Shown here: positions 9,743 to 54,245 of the stretch, piece by piece
How the letters are laid out: every line of letters starts with the position of its first letter
Numbering within the stretch: the stretch's first letter is position 1
Assembly (NCBI GenBank): GCA_008363075.1
Contig: RHKK01000014.1
Location: 1 to 62,534 of the forward strand
DNA: 62,534 nucleotides
Source of the DNA: Candidatus Uhrbacteria bacterium
GTDB taxonomy: Bacteria > Patescibacteriota > Patescibacteriia > 2-12-FULL-60-25
Reading direction: 5' to 3'
Notes under the pieces: generated by a model
What the model saw: only the letters and a program-made list of their open reading frames with translations
Told to the model about the DNA's origin: nothing
Database searches by the model: none
Program-made: the position numbers and the translations under genes

Positions 9743-10261
9743 ATGAAGACACAAAGCGCGGTGTTCGCCGGCGGATGCTTTTGGGGCATGGAGGAGTTGT
9801 TCCGCAAACAGCCCGGCGTGACCGAGACCGAAGCCGGATACGCCGGGGGAAAAAACGAAAACCCGACGTACGAGCATCACCCAGGTCATGCGGAAGCGTT
9901 AAAGGTTACGTATGATCCGGAGAAAACGAGTTTCCGGAACCTGCTCGATTTCTTTTTCCAGATTCATGACCCCACCACGTTGAATCGGCAGGGGAATGAT
10001 GTCGGGTCTTCCTACCGATCCGCCATTTTTTATGAGAATGAGGAGCAGAAAAAGGAAGCGGAAGCGTTTATCGATCTCGTAAACAAGTCCGGGCGTTGGT
10101 CCGATCCCGTTGTCACGACGGTTGAGCCGCTCACCAACTATACGAAGGCGGAGGAGTATCACCAGAATTATTTGCAGAAGAATCCCGGAGGATACACATG
10201 CCATTTTGTGCGGCCGGGTGGGAGTTATCTGCAGAGCGCAGGGGTGAAGAGTGAAGAGTGA
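9743..10261 (+). CDS. msrA: Peptide-methionine (S)-S-oxide reductase MsrA
   Basis: Repairs oxidised methionine (S-epimer) using a reductant such as thioredoxin. The catalytic motif GGCFWGMEE is near residue 11, and the substrate-binding residues and YHQNYL motif are present. Length is 172 residues, normal for the family. The last residues (GVKSEE) and the stop codon are encoded by a GTGAAGA tandem repeat that runs on past the gene. A GAGG site precedes the ATG. No MsrB is visible nearby. Confidence 0.95.
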   Translation: MKTQSAVFAGGCFWGMEELFRKQPGVTETEAGYAGGKNENPTYEHHPGHAEALKVTYDPEKTSFRNLLDFFFQIHDPTTLNRQGNDVGSSYRSAIFYENEEQKKEAEAFIDLVNKSGRWSDPVVTTVEPLTNYTKAEEYHQNYLQKNPGGYTCHFVRPGGSYLQSAGVKSEE

Positions 10262-10317
10262 AGAGTAAAATACCGATACGTGAAAGCTGGCAACTGGCAA
10301 CTGTCTACTGTAAACTC
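10243..10317 (+). repeat. Word-array repeat (GTGAAGA and CTGGCAA/CTGTAAACT words)
   Basis: Three near-perfect GTGAAGA copies, then CTGGCAACTGGCAACTG and CTGTAAACT. Only one arm is obvious, so this looks like a half-element. It encodes the msrA C-terminus and stop and ends seven bases before the next ATG. Confidence 0.6.
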
Positions 10318-12757: not shown

Positions 12758-13213
12758 ATGCGCGTACGAGACGTCATGCAGACGGAGGTCGTCACGATCC
12801 CGGTTGGGACGGCGTACCGGGACGTAGCGGCGCTTTTACGCAAGAAAGGGATTAGCGGGGCGCCGGTCGTGGATAGAGAAAGGGGCGTGGTCGGCGTCGT
12901 GTCCGAAAAGGACCTGTTTCGCGTTTTATACCCCTTTTATCGCAGTTTTTACGAGAATCCGGAGATGTACAGCGATTTGGAGGCGCGAGAAACGAAGGCG
13001 GCCGATATCGCCGACCACCCCGTGGAGCGCTTCATGTCATCCCGGGTCTGGCATATCGAACCGGACGTGCCGCTCATGCGCGCGGGAGCGATCATGCTCG
13101 CGCGCGGCATTCACCGCATGCCCGTCATGGACGGTGGTCGCCTCGTCGGCATCATCACTCGAACGGCCGTGTATCGCGCCGTTTTTGAAATACACTTACC
13201 GAGTAACGAGTAA
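12758..13213 (+). CDS. CBS-pair domain protein
   Basis: A 151-residue protein with two CBS motifs: residues ~1-60 (MRVRDVMQTEVVTIPVGTAYRD...GVVSEKDLFRVL) and ~90-150 (FMSSRVWHIEPDVPLMRAGAIM...LVGIITRTAVYRAV). Stand-alone CBS pairs usually sense adenine nucleotides or act as regulatory subunits; the partner is unknown. The final residues SNE and the stop codon come from the AGTAACGAGTAA word of the palindrome that follows. The same C-terminus and stop are found in ParB. Confidence 0.88.
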   Translation: MRVRDVMQTEVVTIPVGTAYRDVAALLRKKGISGAPVVDRERGVVGVVSEKDLFRVLYPFYRSFYENPEMYSDLEARETKAADIADHPVERFMSSRVWHIEPDVPLMRAGAIMLARGIHRMPVMDGGRLVGIITRTAVYRAVFEIHLPSNE

Positions 13214-13280
13214 CAAGTATCGTCGGACGGTTTCCGACGTTACTCGATACTCGTTATTCGTTGTTTTGTATTCGTTACCC
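13200..13280. repeat. Word-array palindrome, GAGTAAC/GAATAAC/GAGTATC family
   Basis: The left arm (CGAGTAACGAGTAAC...TATCGTCGGA) and right arm (TTCCGACGTTACTCG...TACTCGTTATTCG) are near-complementary, each built of tandem 7-8 base variants. It overlaps the 3' end of the CBS gene and precedes rarA. The same words recur at 39244 and 54179. Confidence 0.8.
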
Positions 13281-17760: not shown

Positions 17761-17824
17761 TCAGGTTTCAGGTTGTAGGTTTCAGCTCCGAAGCTAACAC
17801 CTAAAACCTAATACCTAACACCTG
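17761..17824. repeat. Word-array palindrome, CAGGTTT/TAGGT family
   Basis: Left arm TCAGGTTTCAGGTTGTAGG and right arm CCTAATACCTAACACCTG are tandem words and mutually near-complementary around AGCTCCGAAGCT. It lies between murF and tRNA-Glu. The words overlap those at 46423. Confidence 0.75.
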
Positions 17825-17831
17825 CCCAAAC

Positions 17832-23134: not shown

Positions 23135-23244
23135 GCAGTTTTACAGATGACAGTTAACAGTTGACAGATAACAGAGAAATAGTTCATCTATAACCTGTTC
23201 CAGTTCGGATACTGTAAACTGATAACTGTCAATTGTTAACTGTC
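23135..23244. repeat. Word-array palindrome, ACAGTTGACAG/ACAGATAACAG family
   Basis: The left arm (ACAGATGACAGTTAACAG, then TTGACAGATAACAG) and the right arm (ACTGTAAACTGATAACTG, then TCAATTGTTAACTG) are near-complementary tandem words around a ~45-base centre. It lies between two divergent genes, so it is not simply a terminator. The same words recur at 26761 and 57383. Confidence 0.8.
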
Positions 23245-26760: not shown

Positions 26761-26836
26761 GTTTACGGGTGACGGTTTACAGTTGACAGTGAACAGATCG
26801 CCGTTCTGTCATCTGTCAACTGTTTTCTGTAAACTG
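26761..26836. repeat. Word-array palindrome, ACAGTTGACAG family
   Basis: GGTTTACAGTTGACAGTGAAC pairs with CTGTCATCTGTCAACTG and CTGTAAACTG across a short centre. It fills the gap between asnS and the next gene, and its last word (CTGTAAACT) doubles as the -10 element of that gene. Confidence 0.8.
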
Positions 26837-28411: not shown

Positions 28412-29824
28412 ATGCAACGGACGATGATCCGCGACACGGTCGCGCAGATTGGGGAGGAAGTGCTCCTTCAGGGATGGGTTCATGTCCGGCGCGACATGGG
28501 GAAACTCGCGTTTTTGGATCTGCGCGACCGTTCGGGCATCGCGCAGGTCGTCCTCGTGCCGGCCGAGTTGAGCGAACGGGGCAAGGCGGCGATGAAGGAG
28601 CTGCGCCCGGAGTTTTGCGTGACCGTAACAGGTGTCATTCAGAAGCGCGGCGAGATGCAGGTAAATCCGAACGTGCCGACGGGCGGCATCGAAATCCTCG
28701 CCAAGGACGTGGAGATTCTGAACGCGGCAAAAACACCGCCGTTCGAACTGGAAGACACGTCCGGCATCAGCGAGGAATTGCGATTAAAATACCGCTATCT
28801 CGATCTGCGTTCGTCGCGCATGCTCCGTAATCTCGAATTACGCGACAAGGTCATCACCTTTTTTCGGTCCTATTTGCACGCCCGTGGCTTTTTGGAGGTT
28901 GAGACCCCGAACCTCACCAAAGGGACGCCGGAGGGATCGCGCGAGTATCTCGTGCCGTCGCGTTTGCATCCGGGACGGTTTTACGTGCTTCCGCAATCGC
29001 CGCAGCAGTTCAAACAGTTGCTGATGGTTGGCGGCATCGAGCGATACTTCCAGATCGCGCGATGCTTCCGCGACGAGGACCAGCGCGGGGATCGTCAGCC
29101 CGAATTCACGCAACTCGACATAGAGCTTTCGTTCGTCGATCGTGAAGACGTCCTTTCGCTCATCGAGGGCATGATGATCGAGCTCGTGAAAGCCGTGACG
29201 CTGAACAAACGGATTTCACAGGTTCCGTTCCCGCGTCTTTCATACGCGGAAACAATGGAGAAATACGGGTCGGACAAGCCCGATTTGCGTAAAGACAAAA
29301 ACGATCCGGACGAGCTTGCGTTCGCGTGGATCGTGGACTTTCCGATGTTCGAAAAGAGCGATGCAGGCGGCATCCAAGCGGTACACCACCCGTTCACGTC
29401 GCCGCTGCCAGAGGATCGCGACGTTCTCGATCGCGATCCGCTCAAGACGCGCGCGAACGCGTATGATCTCGTCCTGAACGGCTACGAGATTTTCGGCGGA
29501 TCGATCCGCATCCATCAACGCGAGTTGCAGAACCGCGTCTTCGAGTTGCTCGGACTGGATGCGGACACGATCGAAGAGCGGTTCGGCCACATGCTGGAGG
29601 CGTTCGAATACGGGGCGCCGCCGCATGGCGGGATCGCGTCGGGGCTGGACCGCATCGTGATGATCCTCGCGAACGAGCCCAACATCCGCGAAGTCATCCC
29701 GTTCCCGAAGACGGGGGACGCGCGCGACCTCCTGATGGGCGCACCGAGCGAGATCGAGGAGACGCGGTTGAAGGAGGCACACATCCAAATCCGCAAACCG
29801 CAAATCGCAAACCGCAAAACTTGA
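28412..29824 (+). CDS. aspS: Aspartyl-tRNA synthetase, GAD-less form
   Basis: Class II synthetase. The OB domain begins VLLQGWVHVRRDMGKLAFLDLRD, motif 2 is FRDEDQRGDRQPEFTQLDIEL and motif 3 GIASGLDRIVMILA. Bacterial AspRS is usually near 590 residues because of the GAD insertion; here DKPDLRKDKND runs within ~10 residues into AFAWIVDFPMFE, so the insertion is absent and the length is 470. GQxQ-type specificity determinants (QSPQQFKQLLM) are intact. The last ~12 residues (IQIRKPQIANRKT) are encoded by a CCGCAAA tandem repeat, an apparent late extension. Confidence 0.94.
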   Translation: MQRTMIRDTVAQIGEEVLLQGWVHVRRDMGKLAFLDLRDRSGIAQVVLVPAELSERGKAAMKELRPEFCVTVTGVIQKRGEMQVNPNVPTGGIEILAKDVEILNAAKTPPFELEDTSGISEELRLKYRYLDLRSSRMLRNLELRDKVITFFRSYLHARGFLEVETPNLTKGTPEGSREYLVPSRLHPGRFYVLPQSPQQFKQLLMVGGIERYFQIARCFRDEDQRGDRQPEFTQLDIELSFVDREDVLSLIEGMMIELVKAVTLNKRISQVPFPRLSYAETMEKYGSDKPDLRKDKNDPDELAFAWIVDFPMFEKSDAGGIQAVHHPFTSPLPEDRDVLDRDPLKTRANAYDLVLNGYEIFGGSIRIHQRELQNRVFELLGLDADTIEERFGHMLEAFEYGAPPHGGIASGLDRIVMILANEPNIREVIPFPKTGDARDLLMGAPSEIEETRLKEAHIQIRKPQIANRKT

Positions 29825-29866
29825 TACAAGTATTTTTTTGCGACTTACGACTTACGATCTACGACG
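29793..29866. repeat. Word-array repeat, CCGCAAA and CGACTTA words
   Basis: The aspS end carries four CGCAAA(C/T)-type words, then (after a T run) CGACTTACGACTTACGATC follows. The two arms are only partly complementary. It encodes the aspS C-terminus and runs up to the scpA ATG. Confidence 0.6.
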
Positions 29867-29868
29867 TC

Positions 29869-38341: not shown

Positions 38342-39265
38342 ATGATCCTTCAAAGACAATCGGGATTGGGTAGGGGACTGGGAGCGATTATCCCGCAGAA
38401 GCCCGCGCCTTCGGCGAGTGTAGAGCGTAGCGCGAAGAGCGTAGAGCCGGAAGCTTCCGACGCTACACGCAACGCTCTACGCGATGCGCAGGTCGGGCAG
38501 CGCGTAATTGATATTCCGATCGCGAGCATCGAGCGCAATCCGCACCAGCCTCGCGTCCACTTTGATCACGGAGATCTCGAGGATTTGATTTCGAGCATCC
38601 GTGAACACGGGGTTTTGCAGCCGATCATCGTCACACCCAAGTCGGACGGGACGTATCAGCTGATCGCGGGCGAGCGTCGTTTGCGCGCCTCGACGATTGC
38701 GGGATTGAAAACGATTCCGGCGTTGGTGCGAGAGGCGACCGAGCTACAAAAACTCGAGCTTGCCATCATCGAAAACGTCCAGCGGGCGGATTTGAATCCG
38801 GTCGAAGAAGCAAAGGCGTACATGCGTCTCATGGACGAGTTCGGTATGACGCAGGAAGACATCGGCCGGAAAATCGGCAAGAGCCGCCCGCAAGTCGCGA
38901 ACATTGTGCGCCTGTTGCAACTCCCCGATGAAATACAGCAGGCCTTGGTCGAGGGCAAGATCTCGGCATCCAACGCGCGTACGCTCCTGTCGCTTCCGAC
39001 GGACAAGGAGCGTATAGATCTATTCCGCGCCATGCTCGCGGGCCACTTCACCGTGCGCCAGACGGAAACGCAGGTCTCCGTGCGCAAGCGCATTCCCGGT
39101 ACGAAGGATCCGAATATCGCCGAGGCCGAATCGCGTTTGCGTGAAGCCTTGAAAACAAAGGTTAGCATCAACCGATCCGCGCGCGGGACGGGCGATATCA
39201 AAATCCGGTTCGACTCGGATGAGGAGCTTCAGACGCTGATTCAGCGAATAACAAGTAACGAGTAA
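38342..39265 (+). CDS. parB: Chromosome-partitioning protein ParB (Spo0J) with in-frame repeat insert
   Basis: Binds parS and spreads as a CTP clamp. The N-terminal GLGRGLGAIIP (ParA-contact region) is followed by residues ~26-47 encoded by a palindromic repeat, then the ParB core: IASIERNPHQPR, the CTP-box region LIAGERRLRASTIAG, and the helix-turn-helix around TQEDIGRKIGKSRPQVANIVRL. The last residues (RITSNE) and stop come from another repeat word. Length is 307 residues. Without the insert the N-terminal linker would be about 20 residues shorter, near the family norm. Confidence 0.94.
   Translation: MILQRQSGLGRGLGAIIPQKPAPSASVERSAKSVEPEASDATRNALRDAQVGQRVIDIPIASIERNPHQPRVHFDHGDLEDLISSIREHGVLQPIIVTPKSDGTYQLIAGERRLRASTIAGLKTIPALVREATELQKLELAIIENVQRADLNPVEEAKAYMRLMDEFGMTQEDIGRKIGKSRPQVANIVRLLQLPDEIQQALVEGKISASNARTLLSLPTDKERIDLFRAMLAGHFTVRQTETQVSVRKRIPGTKDPNIAEAESRLREALKTKVSINRSARGTGDIKIRFDSDEELQTLIQRITSNE
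38418..38483. repeat. In-frame word-array palindrome inside parB
   Basis: GTGTAGAGCGTAGC...AGAGCGTAGAG faces CGCTACACGC..AACGCTCTACGC around the centre GGAAGCTTCC. The span is 66 bases (22 codons), keeps the frame open and lies in the linker between the ParA-contact peptide and the ParB core. Confidence 0.8.
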
Positions 39266-39313
39266 CGTCGTGCAAGATTTCTTCCGACGATACTCGCTAT
39301 TCGTTACTCGATT
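39244..39313. repeat. Word-array palindrome, GAGTAAC/GAATAAC family
   Basis: CGAATAACAAGTAACGAG and TAACGTCG face CGACGATACTCGCTATTCG and TTACTCG. It is the same family as 13200 and 54179. It encodes the ParB C-terminus and stop and reaches the stop of the convergent rel gene. Confidence 0.8.
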
Positions 39314-44629: not shown

Positions 44630-44720
44630 ATAACCGCTAACCTTTAACCATGAACCTTTACTGCCGCTAATGTATGAGGTTATCGGTTAGAGGTTAAAGG
44701 TTAGCGGTTATAGGTTAACT
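44630..44720. repeat. Word-array palindrome, AACCTTTAACC/GCTAACC family
   Basis: ATAACCGCTAACCTTTAACC faces GGTTAGAGGTTAAAGG and TTAGCGGTTATAGG, near-perfect arms of tandem 7-8 base words. It lies between dprA (upstream) and topA (downstream) on the minus strand and ends a few bases from both. Confidence 0.82.
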
Positions 44721-46422: not shown

Positions 46423-46494
46423 AGCTTCCAGCTTTCAGGTTCCCGCTTTCAGCCTGATACTAACACCTGAAAGCTGGAAGCTGAAAGCTAATAT
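46423..46494. repeat. Word-array palindrome, AGCTTTCAGGT/AGCTTCC family
   Basis: TAGCTTCCAGCTTTCAGG faces CCTGAAAGCTGGAAGCTG and AAAGCTA. Tandem 8-9 base words form both arms. It supplies the TAG stop of der and ends at the pth start. Confidence 0.8.
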
Positions 46495-47969
46495 CTTCTT
46501 CCTCCGTGTTTCTGTCGCCGCCTTGTGAGGTTCACGAGCCGCTTTTTCTCGCGGATTTTGCCCGCAACGGCTTCCATCCCCGGCCCCTGGACATTGCGCG
46601 CCTTGGACGTTTTAGCGATGGGCAAGTGCCGTACTTTGACGACGATCGGCGTGCCGATGAAGCCGAATTTTTCACGCAGACGCTTCTCGAAAAACTTGAG
46701 CCAATTCGGATGCAGGTTTTCCTTATCGCCGTGGACGGTAATCAAGAATGTCGGAGGGGCGTGACCGACTTGGGCCGCGTCATAAATGCGCGGTGATTTG
46801 GGCCCGTAGCTCGCGAGCGGCTTCATCTTCTTGATCGTGGCCTTGAGCAAGCGGTTCACGGCATTGTAATCAATGTGGCGATAACGCTCCTCCTGGACCT
46901 CCAACGCACGCTCGACGAGCTTGGTCGTTCGTTGTCCCGTTTTTGCGCTGACGAATACCATCGGTGCCCAATTGAGGAAGGGGAACAGCTGGCGGATGAG
47001 CGCCTCATACTCCTTCGGCGTCCCCGTTTCCTTTTGCGGCACGAGATCCCACTTGTTCGCGACGAGAATGAGGCCTTTGCTCGCCTCCTGCAGCATGCCC
47101 GCGAGATGGCGATCCTGCGAGGTCGGGTCCTGCGTCGCGTCAAAGACGAGCAGCGCGACGTCCGCGCGCTCGACCGCCTCGAGATTGCGCTCGACGCCGG
47201 CGCGTTCCACGCCTTTTTCGATCTTGGAACGCGTGCGCATCCCGGCCGTGTCCACGATCGTGACGGGCTTGCCGTCGAATTCGAACTCCGTGTCCTGCGG
47301 TTCGCGCGTCGTGTGGGCGATCGGGGAGACGATCACGCGCTCTTCGCCCAGGATGGCGTTTACGAGCGACGACTTGCCCACGTTCGGACGGCCCACGAGC
47401 ACGAGTCGGAGAGACGGATGTTCCTCGACCGGTACGGGCGGCTTGCCGAGACGGTCAAGCTCGACCGTAACCTCGTCGAGGAGATCGCCGACGCCGAGTC
47501 CCGTGGCCGCGCTCACCGGATGAGGCATGCCCATCGCGAGCGAATACAGCTCTTCATCGGTGCCTTGCGGGAAGTATTTGAGGGTGTCGACCTTGTTCGA
47601 CACGAGCCAGACCGGTTTTTTGGATTTCAACACCTCGCGCGCGAGCTTCCGATCCTGTGGCAGGATGCCCGCACGCGCATCCACGACGAACAGTACGAGA
47701 TCCGCGTCCTTGATCGCGAGCTCCGCCTGGCGGCGGATCCCGATACCGATCTCGTCCGCCTCCGTATCCATCCCGCCCGTGTCGACGAGGCCGAATGTCC
47801 CCGCGCGCCAAAGCACGCGACCGAAATTGCGGTCGCGTGTCGTATGCTCTTCTTCGCTGACCACGGCGCGGCCGCTTTCGGTCAGACGATTCCAGAGCGT
47901 CGATTTTCCGACGTTCGTGCGTCCGACAAGGGCGACGACGGGGAGGTTAGGGTTGCGTTTTCGTGGCAT
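46488..47969 (-). CDS. der: Ribosome-associated GTPase Der (EngA)
   Basis: Two tandem Era-like GTPase domains needed for 50S assembly. G1 motifs are GRTNVGKST (near 16) and GRPNVGKSS (near 192); G3 motifs are DTGGM and DTAGM; NKVD and NKWD supply G4. The C-terminal KH-like domain spans ~380-470, followed by a basic tail (RRRQKHGGRRY). Length is 493 residues. It overlaps the upstream LCP gene by 23 bases, implying co-translation. Confidence 0.96.
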   Translation of the reverse strand: MPRKRNPNLPVVALVGRTNVGKSTLWNRLTESGRAVVSEEEHTTRDRNFGRVLWRAGTFGLVDTGGMDTEADEIGIGIRRQAELAIKDADLVLFVVDARAGILPQDRKLAREVLKSKKPVWLVSNKVDTLKYFPQGTDEELYSLAMGMPHPVSAATGLGVGDLLDEVTVELDRLGKPPVPVEEHPSLRLVLVGRPNVGKSSLVNAILGEERVIVSPIAHTTREPQDTEFEFDGKPVTIVDTAGMRTRSKIEKGVERAGVERNLEAVERADVALLVFDATQDPTSQDRHLAGMLQEASKGLILVANKWDLVPQKETGTPKEYEALIRQLFPFLNWAPMVFVSAKTGQRTTKLVERALEVQEERYRHIDYNAVNRLLKATIKKMKPLASYGPKSPRIYDAAQVGHAPPTFLITVHGDKENLHPNWLKFFEKRLREKFGFIGTPIVVKVRHLPIAKTSKARNVQGPGMEAVAGKIREKKRLVNLTRRRQKHGGRRY

Positions 47970-52615: not shown

Positions 52616-54178
52616 ATGCGACGAGACCAATGGCTGCAGTTCTTTGACGCACAGCCCGGCTCGGTCCAGGGGTATTTATTGAGCAACGAGGCGGGGGAGC
52701 GGGAAGCGAAAGCGCAAGACAAACTCGCCTATGATAACGACGCGTGGGACCGTGTGATGGACGTCGTGTGGGATTTGTTGTTCCTCAAAACGTCGCGCGG
52801 CGAGTTCACGAACCGCATCCGCAAGCTCGCGGGCGACCGGAAGCCCGAGGAGGTTGAACGAGCCGTCCTGCAATGGGTCGTCCTGCCGCTTGCGGATCTC
52901 GTGGTGTGGGACGTAGAGACGCGTCTCATGGACCTCGGCGTTCCGGCAAGCGAGCTCCAGGCCGTCAACCGGATTTCGCTGCGTCCCGTTTCGTACGGCG
53001 TCGCGGCGAGGCGCATCGCAAGCGCGGCGAGTATCAGCCTGCTCGGCGAGGATTCCGTGAACCGTCTACGCGACGTGCTGGTCTCCTTTATCAAGGGCGT
53101 GCGGACGGAAGAACAGGTCCTGGAAATCCTGCAACGCAAGCAGGCCGAGGGCGGACTCGGATTCGCGAAACCGCAAGCGGACGCGTTCGTCGCGCGGATG
53201 AAGGAGTTCCTCGCGACGACGGAAGTGATGTCCGAAACGGCATTCGCGGAATGGTTGCAAAATTTCCAGCGCGAAGCCGAGGCGGAGCAGGCGCACATCG
53301 CGTCTCAAGCCGCGAAAACGGGAGACAAAAAAACCGAGGGGATGATCGGCGAGACACGGACGAGAAAATTCGATCCCGTTCTCGAACAAACCGTCGATCA
53401 GGCCGTGCAAAACATCAATCTAAAGGAACCGCTCGAAGAGCATCTGCTGACGCGGTTGCGAAACCTGATCTCGTCGCGGCTTCGCGACGTCAGGAATCGC
53501 GAACAGATCCTCACCGTACTTCAGCGCGAACAAAAAGTCGGCGGGATGGGATTCGATCCGGCGGAAGCGGACCGTGTCACGCAGGTGATCGAGCAAGTCT
53601 ACAAGGACAAGCGGACGGCGGTGGAAGAGGAAGCGAGGGCCAAAATCCAACGCATCCAGGAGGAGCAGAAGCAAAAGGTCGAGGAACGCAAAAAACGCGA
53701 AAGCGAGGAGCATGCCGCGTGGTATCGTGAAAAGGTCGCGCCCGCCAAAGGGGAGGAGGCGTTGCGGCACCTCATCATTGAGGGAAGCAAACAACCGCTT
53801 GCGCAGACGGGACGACCGACAAGCTTGGACGGCATCACGGGACCGGGGTCCAGGTTGACGGGTTTGGCGGACGAGCTGCGGAACATGGACATCGAGGCGT
53901 ATCGACGGCTGTCGCGTGATCCGCAACAAGCGGCCGACCGCGTTATGGAAAAACTTGACACATTGAAGAGGGAGTCGTTTGACCGGTGGACGGAAGGCGT
54001 TGAAGCGTGGCGTCAAAGCCCGCTTCAACAACAGTATCTGAAACTCGTGACGGAGAGCTTCTCCTCCGGCAAACCCGTCGCGCAGCTTGTCGAGGAAAAA
54101 CGCAAAGCCGATCCGAGGCTCCCGAGCGCGGAGGAGTTGGGATCGATCATTGCGTTGAATGGAAGAATCCAGTTCTAA
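52616..54178 (+). CDS. T4SS-cluster protein of unknown function with a duplicated domain
   Basis: A 520-residue soluble helical protein with no signal peptide. It contains two copies of one module: ~160-205 (RLRDVLVSFIKGVRTEEQVL, GGLGFAKPQADAFV) and ~282-330 (RLRNLISSRLRDVRNREQIL, GGMGFDPAEADRV). A Lys/Glu coiled coil follows at ~335-370. The fixed position between VirB6-like and PrgI genes suggests a cytoplasmic accessory of the machine. CATAAT lies five bases before the ATG. No family recognised. Confidence 0.75.
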   Translation: MRRDQWLQFFDAQPGSVQGYLLSNEAGEREAKAQDKLAYDNDAWDRVMDVVWDLLFLKTSRGEFTNRIRKLAGDRKPEEVERAVLQWVVLPLADLVVWDVETRLMDLGVPASELQAVNRISLRPVSYGVAARRIASAASISLLGEDSVNRLRDVLVSFIKGVRTEEQVLEILQRKQAEGGLGFAKPQADAFVARMKEFLATTEVMSETAFAEWLQNFQREAEAEQAHIASQAAKTGDKKTEGMIGETRTRKFDPVLEQTVDQAVQNINLKEPLEEHLLTRLRNLISSRLRDVRNREQILTVLQREQKVGGMGFDPAEADRVTQVIEQVYKDKRTAVEEEARAKIQRIQEEQKQKVEERKKRESEEHAAWYREKVAPAKGEEALRHLIIEGSKQPLAQTGRPTSLDGITGPGSRLTGLADELRNMDIEAYRRLSRDPQQAADRVMEKLDTLKRESFDRWTEGVEAWRQSPLQQQYLKLVTESFSSGKPVAQLVEEKRKADPRLPSAEELGSIIALNGRIQF

Positions 54179-54237
54179 TCGAATAATGAATATCGAGTAA
54201 CGTCCGACGATACCCGCTACTCGTTATTCGTGGTATT
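54179..54237. repeat. Word-array palindrome, GAATAAT/GAGTAAC family
   Basis: TCGAATAATGAATATCGAG and TAACGTC face GACGATACCCGCTACTCG and TTATTCG. It is the third member of the family seen at 13200 and 39244, here inside the T4SS-type cluster before the PrgI gene. Confidence 0.78.
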
Positions 54238-54245
54238 CTTTAGCC

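Follow-up and report, generated by a model that had tools for sequence, protein, structure and literature searches.

A heptamer-array palindrome in frame within parB of a Candidatus Uhrbacteria genome and its probable link to S23-associated hairpin elements

The window, i.e. the whole stretch of DNA analysed, comprises 62,534 nucleotides of contig RHKK01000014.1 from a Candidatus Uhrbacteria genome (1.1 Mb, 25 contigs). The parB gene occupies positions 38342-39265 (+ strand) as an ORF that encodes ParB_N, HTH_ParB and ParB_C in one frame. Its 307 aa product carries the peptide GLGRGLGAIIP, followed by a linker, ParB_N, the HTH and the dimerisation domain (ParB_C); among named relatives, the best ParB identity (69%) was with a Candidatus Uhrbacteria MAG.

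An in-frame palindrome built of heptamer words (GYGTAGM) lies at 38418-38483 (+ strand), encodes about SVERSAKSVEPEASDATRNALR and was characterised by repeat, folding and chance tests. The left arm (38418-38446, +) reads GTGTAGA GCGTAGC GCGAAGA GCGTAGA, the core CCGGAAGCTTCCGACG (38447-38462, +) resembles the CGTCGGAAG core of the GAGTAAC family described below, and the right arm (38463-38482, -) consists of inverted words. GTGTAGAG is found at 38418-38425 and GCGTAGAG at 38439-38446, the latter again in inverted orientation at 38475-38482; the repeat unit is 7 nt and not 8. The preliminary description of this DNA had reported a 66-nt palindrome in frame in parB, and its coordinates and frame were correct; the structure is an imperfect inverted repeat with 33-nt arms that are 79% complementary, and it tops the list of inverted repeats in the window (arms less than 200 nt apart). 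The third word of the left arm carries A instead of T (AAG) at the place where TAG would be an in-frame stop. The palindrome is flanked by a direct repeat of GCGA (38414-38417 and 38481-38484), which was considered as a target duplication and rejected because its 67-nt spacing would break the frame.

Among 2000 synonymous recodings of this peptide, 2 attained the palindrome score of 23, as did 3 of 4184 coding windows from the genome; none of 2000 base shuffles and none of 2000 codon shuffles attained it. Folded as RNA, the palindrome gave z = -3.3 (0/200 shuffles equally stable); folding with DNA parameters gave z = -1.5, which is not significant. The parB words were not enriched across the window (4 matches against 2 expected, too few alone for significance). 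Genome-wide, exact two-word matches were limited to parB and smc, with several looser arrays elsewhere.

The only exact GYGTAGAGYGTAG arrays of the genome are those of smc (L135:16549-16572) and parB (window 38418-38446). Both are chromosome-segregation genes and carry their arrays in the same frame, which is possibly a coincidence. The GCGTAGA words of both genes are read in this common frame (SVER); the third word, in which TAG would be in frame, is changed in each of them, to AAG in parB and to CAG in smc. When the parB element was used as BLAST query, the smc array was the sole relative matched, and the match was weak.

Among the 41 genomes of the family, parB was matched in 39. Heptamer arrays were present in 4 of 38 parB linkers, those of the source genome, G033, G035 and G039, and their words differ (CGAATCC in G033, TCGAAGC in G035); all four genomes also carry PF05635 (S23) genes. 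Over 25-33 nt, the G035 array shares 90-96% identity with the arrays that flank S23 in the same genome. The palindrome score of the source genome was matched by 1 of the 34 other scored linkers, that of G039, which is likewise heptamer-periodic. No heptamer arrays were found in the parB linkers of the sister genus g7 (G012-G014). The preliminary description had considered that all relatives might carry the same residues, which would have spoken against its reading; this is not so, as 3 of the 37 other linkers contain arrays of different words and the rest contain none. The linker could not be aligned between the source genome and its relatives, none of which is close to this species, and the internal copy has no empty site among them. 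It measures 47 aa here against 34-40 aa in g7 (net +7 to +13), and 30-71 aa across the family (median 44 aa); because of these lengths, a clean 66-nt insertion in parB is unsupported, and the earlier figure of about 22 added residues was replaced by a difference of 7-13 aa from the sister genus.

Period-7 arrays were counted in a sample of about 404 kb, composed of the window and L121-L140 with the masked contig excluded (L127, G000:C7, is all N). About 76 arrays were obtained (18.8 per 100 kb); the same sample gave 2, 12, 2, 8 and 0 arrays at the control periods of 5, 6, 8, 9 and 10, respectively, and the counts at periods 6 and 9 reflect codon structure. The arrays use many different words, are often paired as inverted arms, and form dispersed families whose word variants follow the same order even in widely separated copies (97% identity over 39 nt in one case). 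Inside called genes there were 19 of the 76 arrays, although about 87% of the sample was called coding by a simple hexamer model that was built for this analysis in place of a published gene finder. Most arrays are intergenic and occupy gaps of the tandem, convergent and divergent types; stable folds were obtained for those tested. Within the window, intergenic hairpins have GGTTANN words (44630-44718, family copies at L137:15101 and L128:17556), ACAGTTN words (23140-23244) and ACAGTNN words (26763-26823), and a further hairpin has AGCTTCC/GAAAGCT words (46423-46496). Paired arrays of CGCAAAN and CGACTTA words were located at 29784-29868, intergenic arrays of GTGAAGA and CAACTGN words at 10236-10317, and an intergenic array of CACCTAA words at 17790-17827. 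A 79-nt repeat (L128:19108-19186 and L135:3510-3588, 94% identical) contains GATCC words like those flanking the C10 S23 gene.

A second hairpin, which belongs to the GAGTAAC family, spans the parB stop codon (39242-39311, -). Four relatives lack it at the orthologous junction, which is bare (in L004: TTGTAATCGATTATTTTCC), and here a segment of about 60 nt at the 3' junction supplies the last ParB residues and the stop. The hairpin is 88% identical over 57 nt to a distant copy, with word order conserved. Other members of the family are found at 13200-13276 (-, intergenic), at 54175-54242 (-) and at L134:10840. GAGTAAC arrays with a CGTCGGAA core, of the same family as the hairpin at the parB 3' end, also flank the S23 gene at C15:21601.

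Array copies were also found within parB, dnaG (three arrays), tsaD (two), argS, radA, smc, and the GAPDH, pirin, phosphomannomutase and glycosyltransferase genes; the ORFs of parB, dnaG, tsaD, argS, radA, smc and GAPDH are intact despite the arrays. At dnaG site 1, 10 aa are added to a loop that has 8 aa in most relatives shown, and other extra residues occupy the same loop in L176, L177, L187, L185 and L186; judged from these sequences, the loop appears to be a recurrent in-frame insertion site. The orthologs L176, L177 and L187 have repeat-like peptides (APSTSSGH, NPSTGSGR and VIPTEAQRSGGI) in this loop. The product of tsaD is 5 to 6 aa longer at site 1 than in the sister genus; in radA there is a gain of 2 aa. 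No length change was seen at tsaD site 2, where almost four GATCCTT copies (L135:4157-4197) fill a conserved region of the same length as in most relatives shown, or in argS compared with L205. Because length is unchanged relative to relatives, these two cases are not explicable by simple insertion: some of the arrays in coding regions either took the place of sequence already there or offset each gain by an equal loss. Another, unlike palindromic element, GGGCGAATAACCATTCGCCC, was present at L121:1673-1724 and L137:5901-5952, its two copies sharing 92% identity across 52 nt; it lies in frame in dnaG, and beside or inside the N-terminal region of radA.

In three cases, a pair of inverted arrays spaced by about 400 nt encloses a gene. 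In the family search, the enclosed genes were PF05635 (23S_rRNA_IVP), of which the source genome has five copies. An S23 ORF between inverted repeats was found in the source genome and at many other S23 loci; the parB copy contains no such ORF. Arrays stood on both sides of 15 of the 30 PF05635 loci of the family (L285-L314), against 1 of 150 control-gene loci, and arm complementarity exceeded the 99th percentile of mismatched pairs at 19 of the 30. In a sample of 22 loci from across the phylum (Patescibacteria), 11 had arrays on both sides and 10 had arm scores above the 99th percentile. Among 14 named plasmid loci, 12 (Cyanobacteria, Azospirillum) also had arrays next to S23. The nearest arrays of the Pseudanabaena plasmid locus have the same direction and are not inverted, and the Gemmatirosa and Picosynechococcus loci have heptamer-like runs that are visible by eye and fall below the array threshold. 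GCGTAGA words were found beside none of the five source-genome S23 elements, nor beside any other S23 locus examined. The annotated S23 plasmid loci adjoin protein genes; in Anabaena and Pseudanabaena plasmids S23 genes lie between cas6 and cas4, and in Picosynechococcus an S23 gene lies between cas10/cmr2 and cmr3 (among L395, L396 and L405). S23 is the only protein linked to the arrays, and we know of no enzyme or catalytic activity for it. The protein resembles PDB 2gsc, and the Xanthomonas S23p structure has been described as a pentamer (PMC4990558).

Array density is lineage-specific. In sampled sequence of 5-60 kb per relative, it was 0-3.4 per 100 kb in g7, compared with 18.8 in the source genome. 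Across the 41 family genomes, density correlated with the number of PF05635 genes (Spearman 0.63, p about 1e-5, the genomes not being independent), with means of 15.4 arrays per 100 kb in genomes that have two or more copies and 1.0 in those with none. In G007, G011, G030 and G035, the sampled sequence contained no arrays despite several S23 genes per genome; G024 has many arrays and one S23 gene.

Empty sites were found in cyanobacterial plasmids. In Trichormus and Scytonema plasmids, the sequence AAGTAAT/TAACAAAT is split by an insertion of 428 nt (by span difference) in which heptamer arms enclose S23; GTAAT stands at each end of the insertion (L400/L401 compared with L409/L411/L414). Plasmids of Nostoc linckia, N. 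carneum and Aulosira do not have the insertion and are 97-98% identical outside it. A Brasilonema plasmid carries a gene-less heptamer hairpin at the identical insertion site (L412, a solo hairpin in another plasmid), Nostoc C052 has a truncated copy at the same plasmid site, and a ribonucleotide-reductase junction is a second case of insertion. The arrays therefore belong to what is inserted and did not serve as a target already in place. The suggestion made earlier for the parB palindrome, that such elements move, agrees with the dispersal of the heptamer hairpins and with these insertions at other sites.

We consider it likely that the parB palindrome is a solo, non-autonomous, MITE-like copy of an S23/heptamer element, kept in frame, the ends of the element being inverted heptamer arrays. 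The complete form measures about 400-430 nt and consists of an array, an S23/PF05635 gene encoding a four-helix bundle, and an inverted array. Its insertion at a new site, with a short apparent target duplication, was seen in the cyanobacterial plasmids, and short hairpins of this type that lack the gene exist as well. A hairpin that lands in a disordered linker or surface loop could survive if the net length keeps the frame and if word variants remove in-frame stops, as is the case in parB, whose third word has AAG in place of TAG. We infer that the parB copy arrived by insertion, and the S23 protein may help to move or copy the hairpins.

Arrays might instead grow in place by replication slippage or hairpin-templated repair, with nothing moving and the parB palindrome a local product; this proposal has been made for the cyanobacterial STRRs. 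Such growth would suit the tsaD site 2 and argS arrays, which show no length change relative to some relatives, and heptamer copy number does vary among Coxiella IVS strains (PMC4990558). We judge it unlikely, given that unlinked copies conserve word order, that empty sites have perfect flanks, and that array density follows lineage and S23 genes. Selection of the hairpins as regulatory signals (terminators, RNase III or protein-binding sites), with the coding copies as by-products or translational regulators, is quite improbable. The arrays are mostly intergenic, with stable folds where tested, MacGregor suggested that TAACTGA repeats control translation (PMC4679880), and in Coxiella the first heptamer is where RNase III cleaves the IVS (PMC4990558), but the arrays are spread through gaps of the tandem, convergent and divergent types and also lie within genes. 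Nor are the hairpins required, because they are near-absent in the sister genus.

It is hardly credible that the palindrome is ordinary coding sequence for a Ser/Ala/Glu-rich linker, made palindromic by chance or codon bias. Linkers of parB are variable and of low complexity, and two synonymous recodings did reach the score; against this stand the shuffles, none of which did so, the joint occurrence of periodicity and inversion, and the dozens of similar arrays in the genome.

S23 or 'four helix bundle' genes are common and unexplained, and are treated as ribosomal or IVS proteins. Array-bounded S23 genes, empty sites and gene-less copies together give S23 a setting as an insertable element, make its role directly testable, and offer an origin for the heptamer repeats of Cyanobacteria and Beggiatoaceae. 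We regard it as evenly balanced whether S23 genes and the inverted heptamer arrays at their ends constitute a single, hitherto unrecognised class of mobile element that is widespread across phyla and dispenses with any known transposase and any fixed end sequence. Such a class would unite rRNA IVSs, the heptamer repeats of cyanobacteria and Beggiatoa, and the in-frame palindromes of Patescibacteria. Very small, reduced genomes take up sequences of this kind within essential proteins.

The nearest relatives of the parB palindrome are the 23S-rRNA IVS/S23 element and, among heptanucleotide repeats, those of cyanobacteria and Beggiatoa. The cyanobacterial STRR heptanucleotide repeats comprise several heptamer families, some of them hairpin-forming, and to our knowledge no association with S23 is known for them. 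Solo hairpins are like MITEs in being terminal inverted repeats without a transposase ORF; an apparent target-site duplication (GTAAT) accompanies the full cyanobacterial elements, and none is credible at parB. The Coxiella burnetii IVS has 428 nt, an S23p ORF and tandem heptamers (GACAGAT) beside the ORF (PMC4990558). The full S23 elements share with 23S IVSs the S23/PF05635 gene bounded by inverted repeats, the length of about 430 nt and the heptamers beside the ORF. The copies located here differ in lying between or inside protein genes, whereas known IVSs lie in 23S rRNA and are excised by RNase III, and in having different words per family and gene-less solo derivatives. The TAACTGA repeats of Beggiatoaceae, Cyanobacteria and Bacteroidetes are alike in period 7, mostly intergenic position, occasional presence in ORFs and patchy distribution, but have one fixed word and one reported indirect repeat (PMC4679880, which does not mention S23), in place of the diverse words, inverted arms and S23 link seen here. 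We found no paper that joins the heptamers beside S23p (PMC4990558) with those inside ORFs (PMC4679880); in a search with most subscription journals outside reach, only PMC4990558 linked S23 and heptamers, and an earlier description is possible. Rickettsia palindromic elements (RPEs) are likewise palindromic repeats in frame in unrelated, often metabolic genes, but form families of about 150 bp with a conserved peptide (PMC10969869), whereas the present copies measure 30-80 nt, have variable heptamer words and peptides, and are S23-linked. The RPE comparison of the preliminary description stands for a repetitive palindrome held in frame within an essential gene, at a linker that is permissive, and does not stand as the nearest parallel: it holds for behaviour, not for membership.
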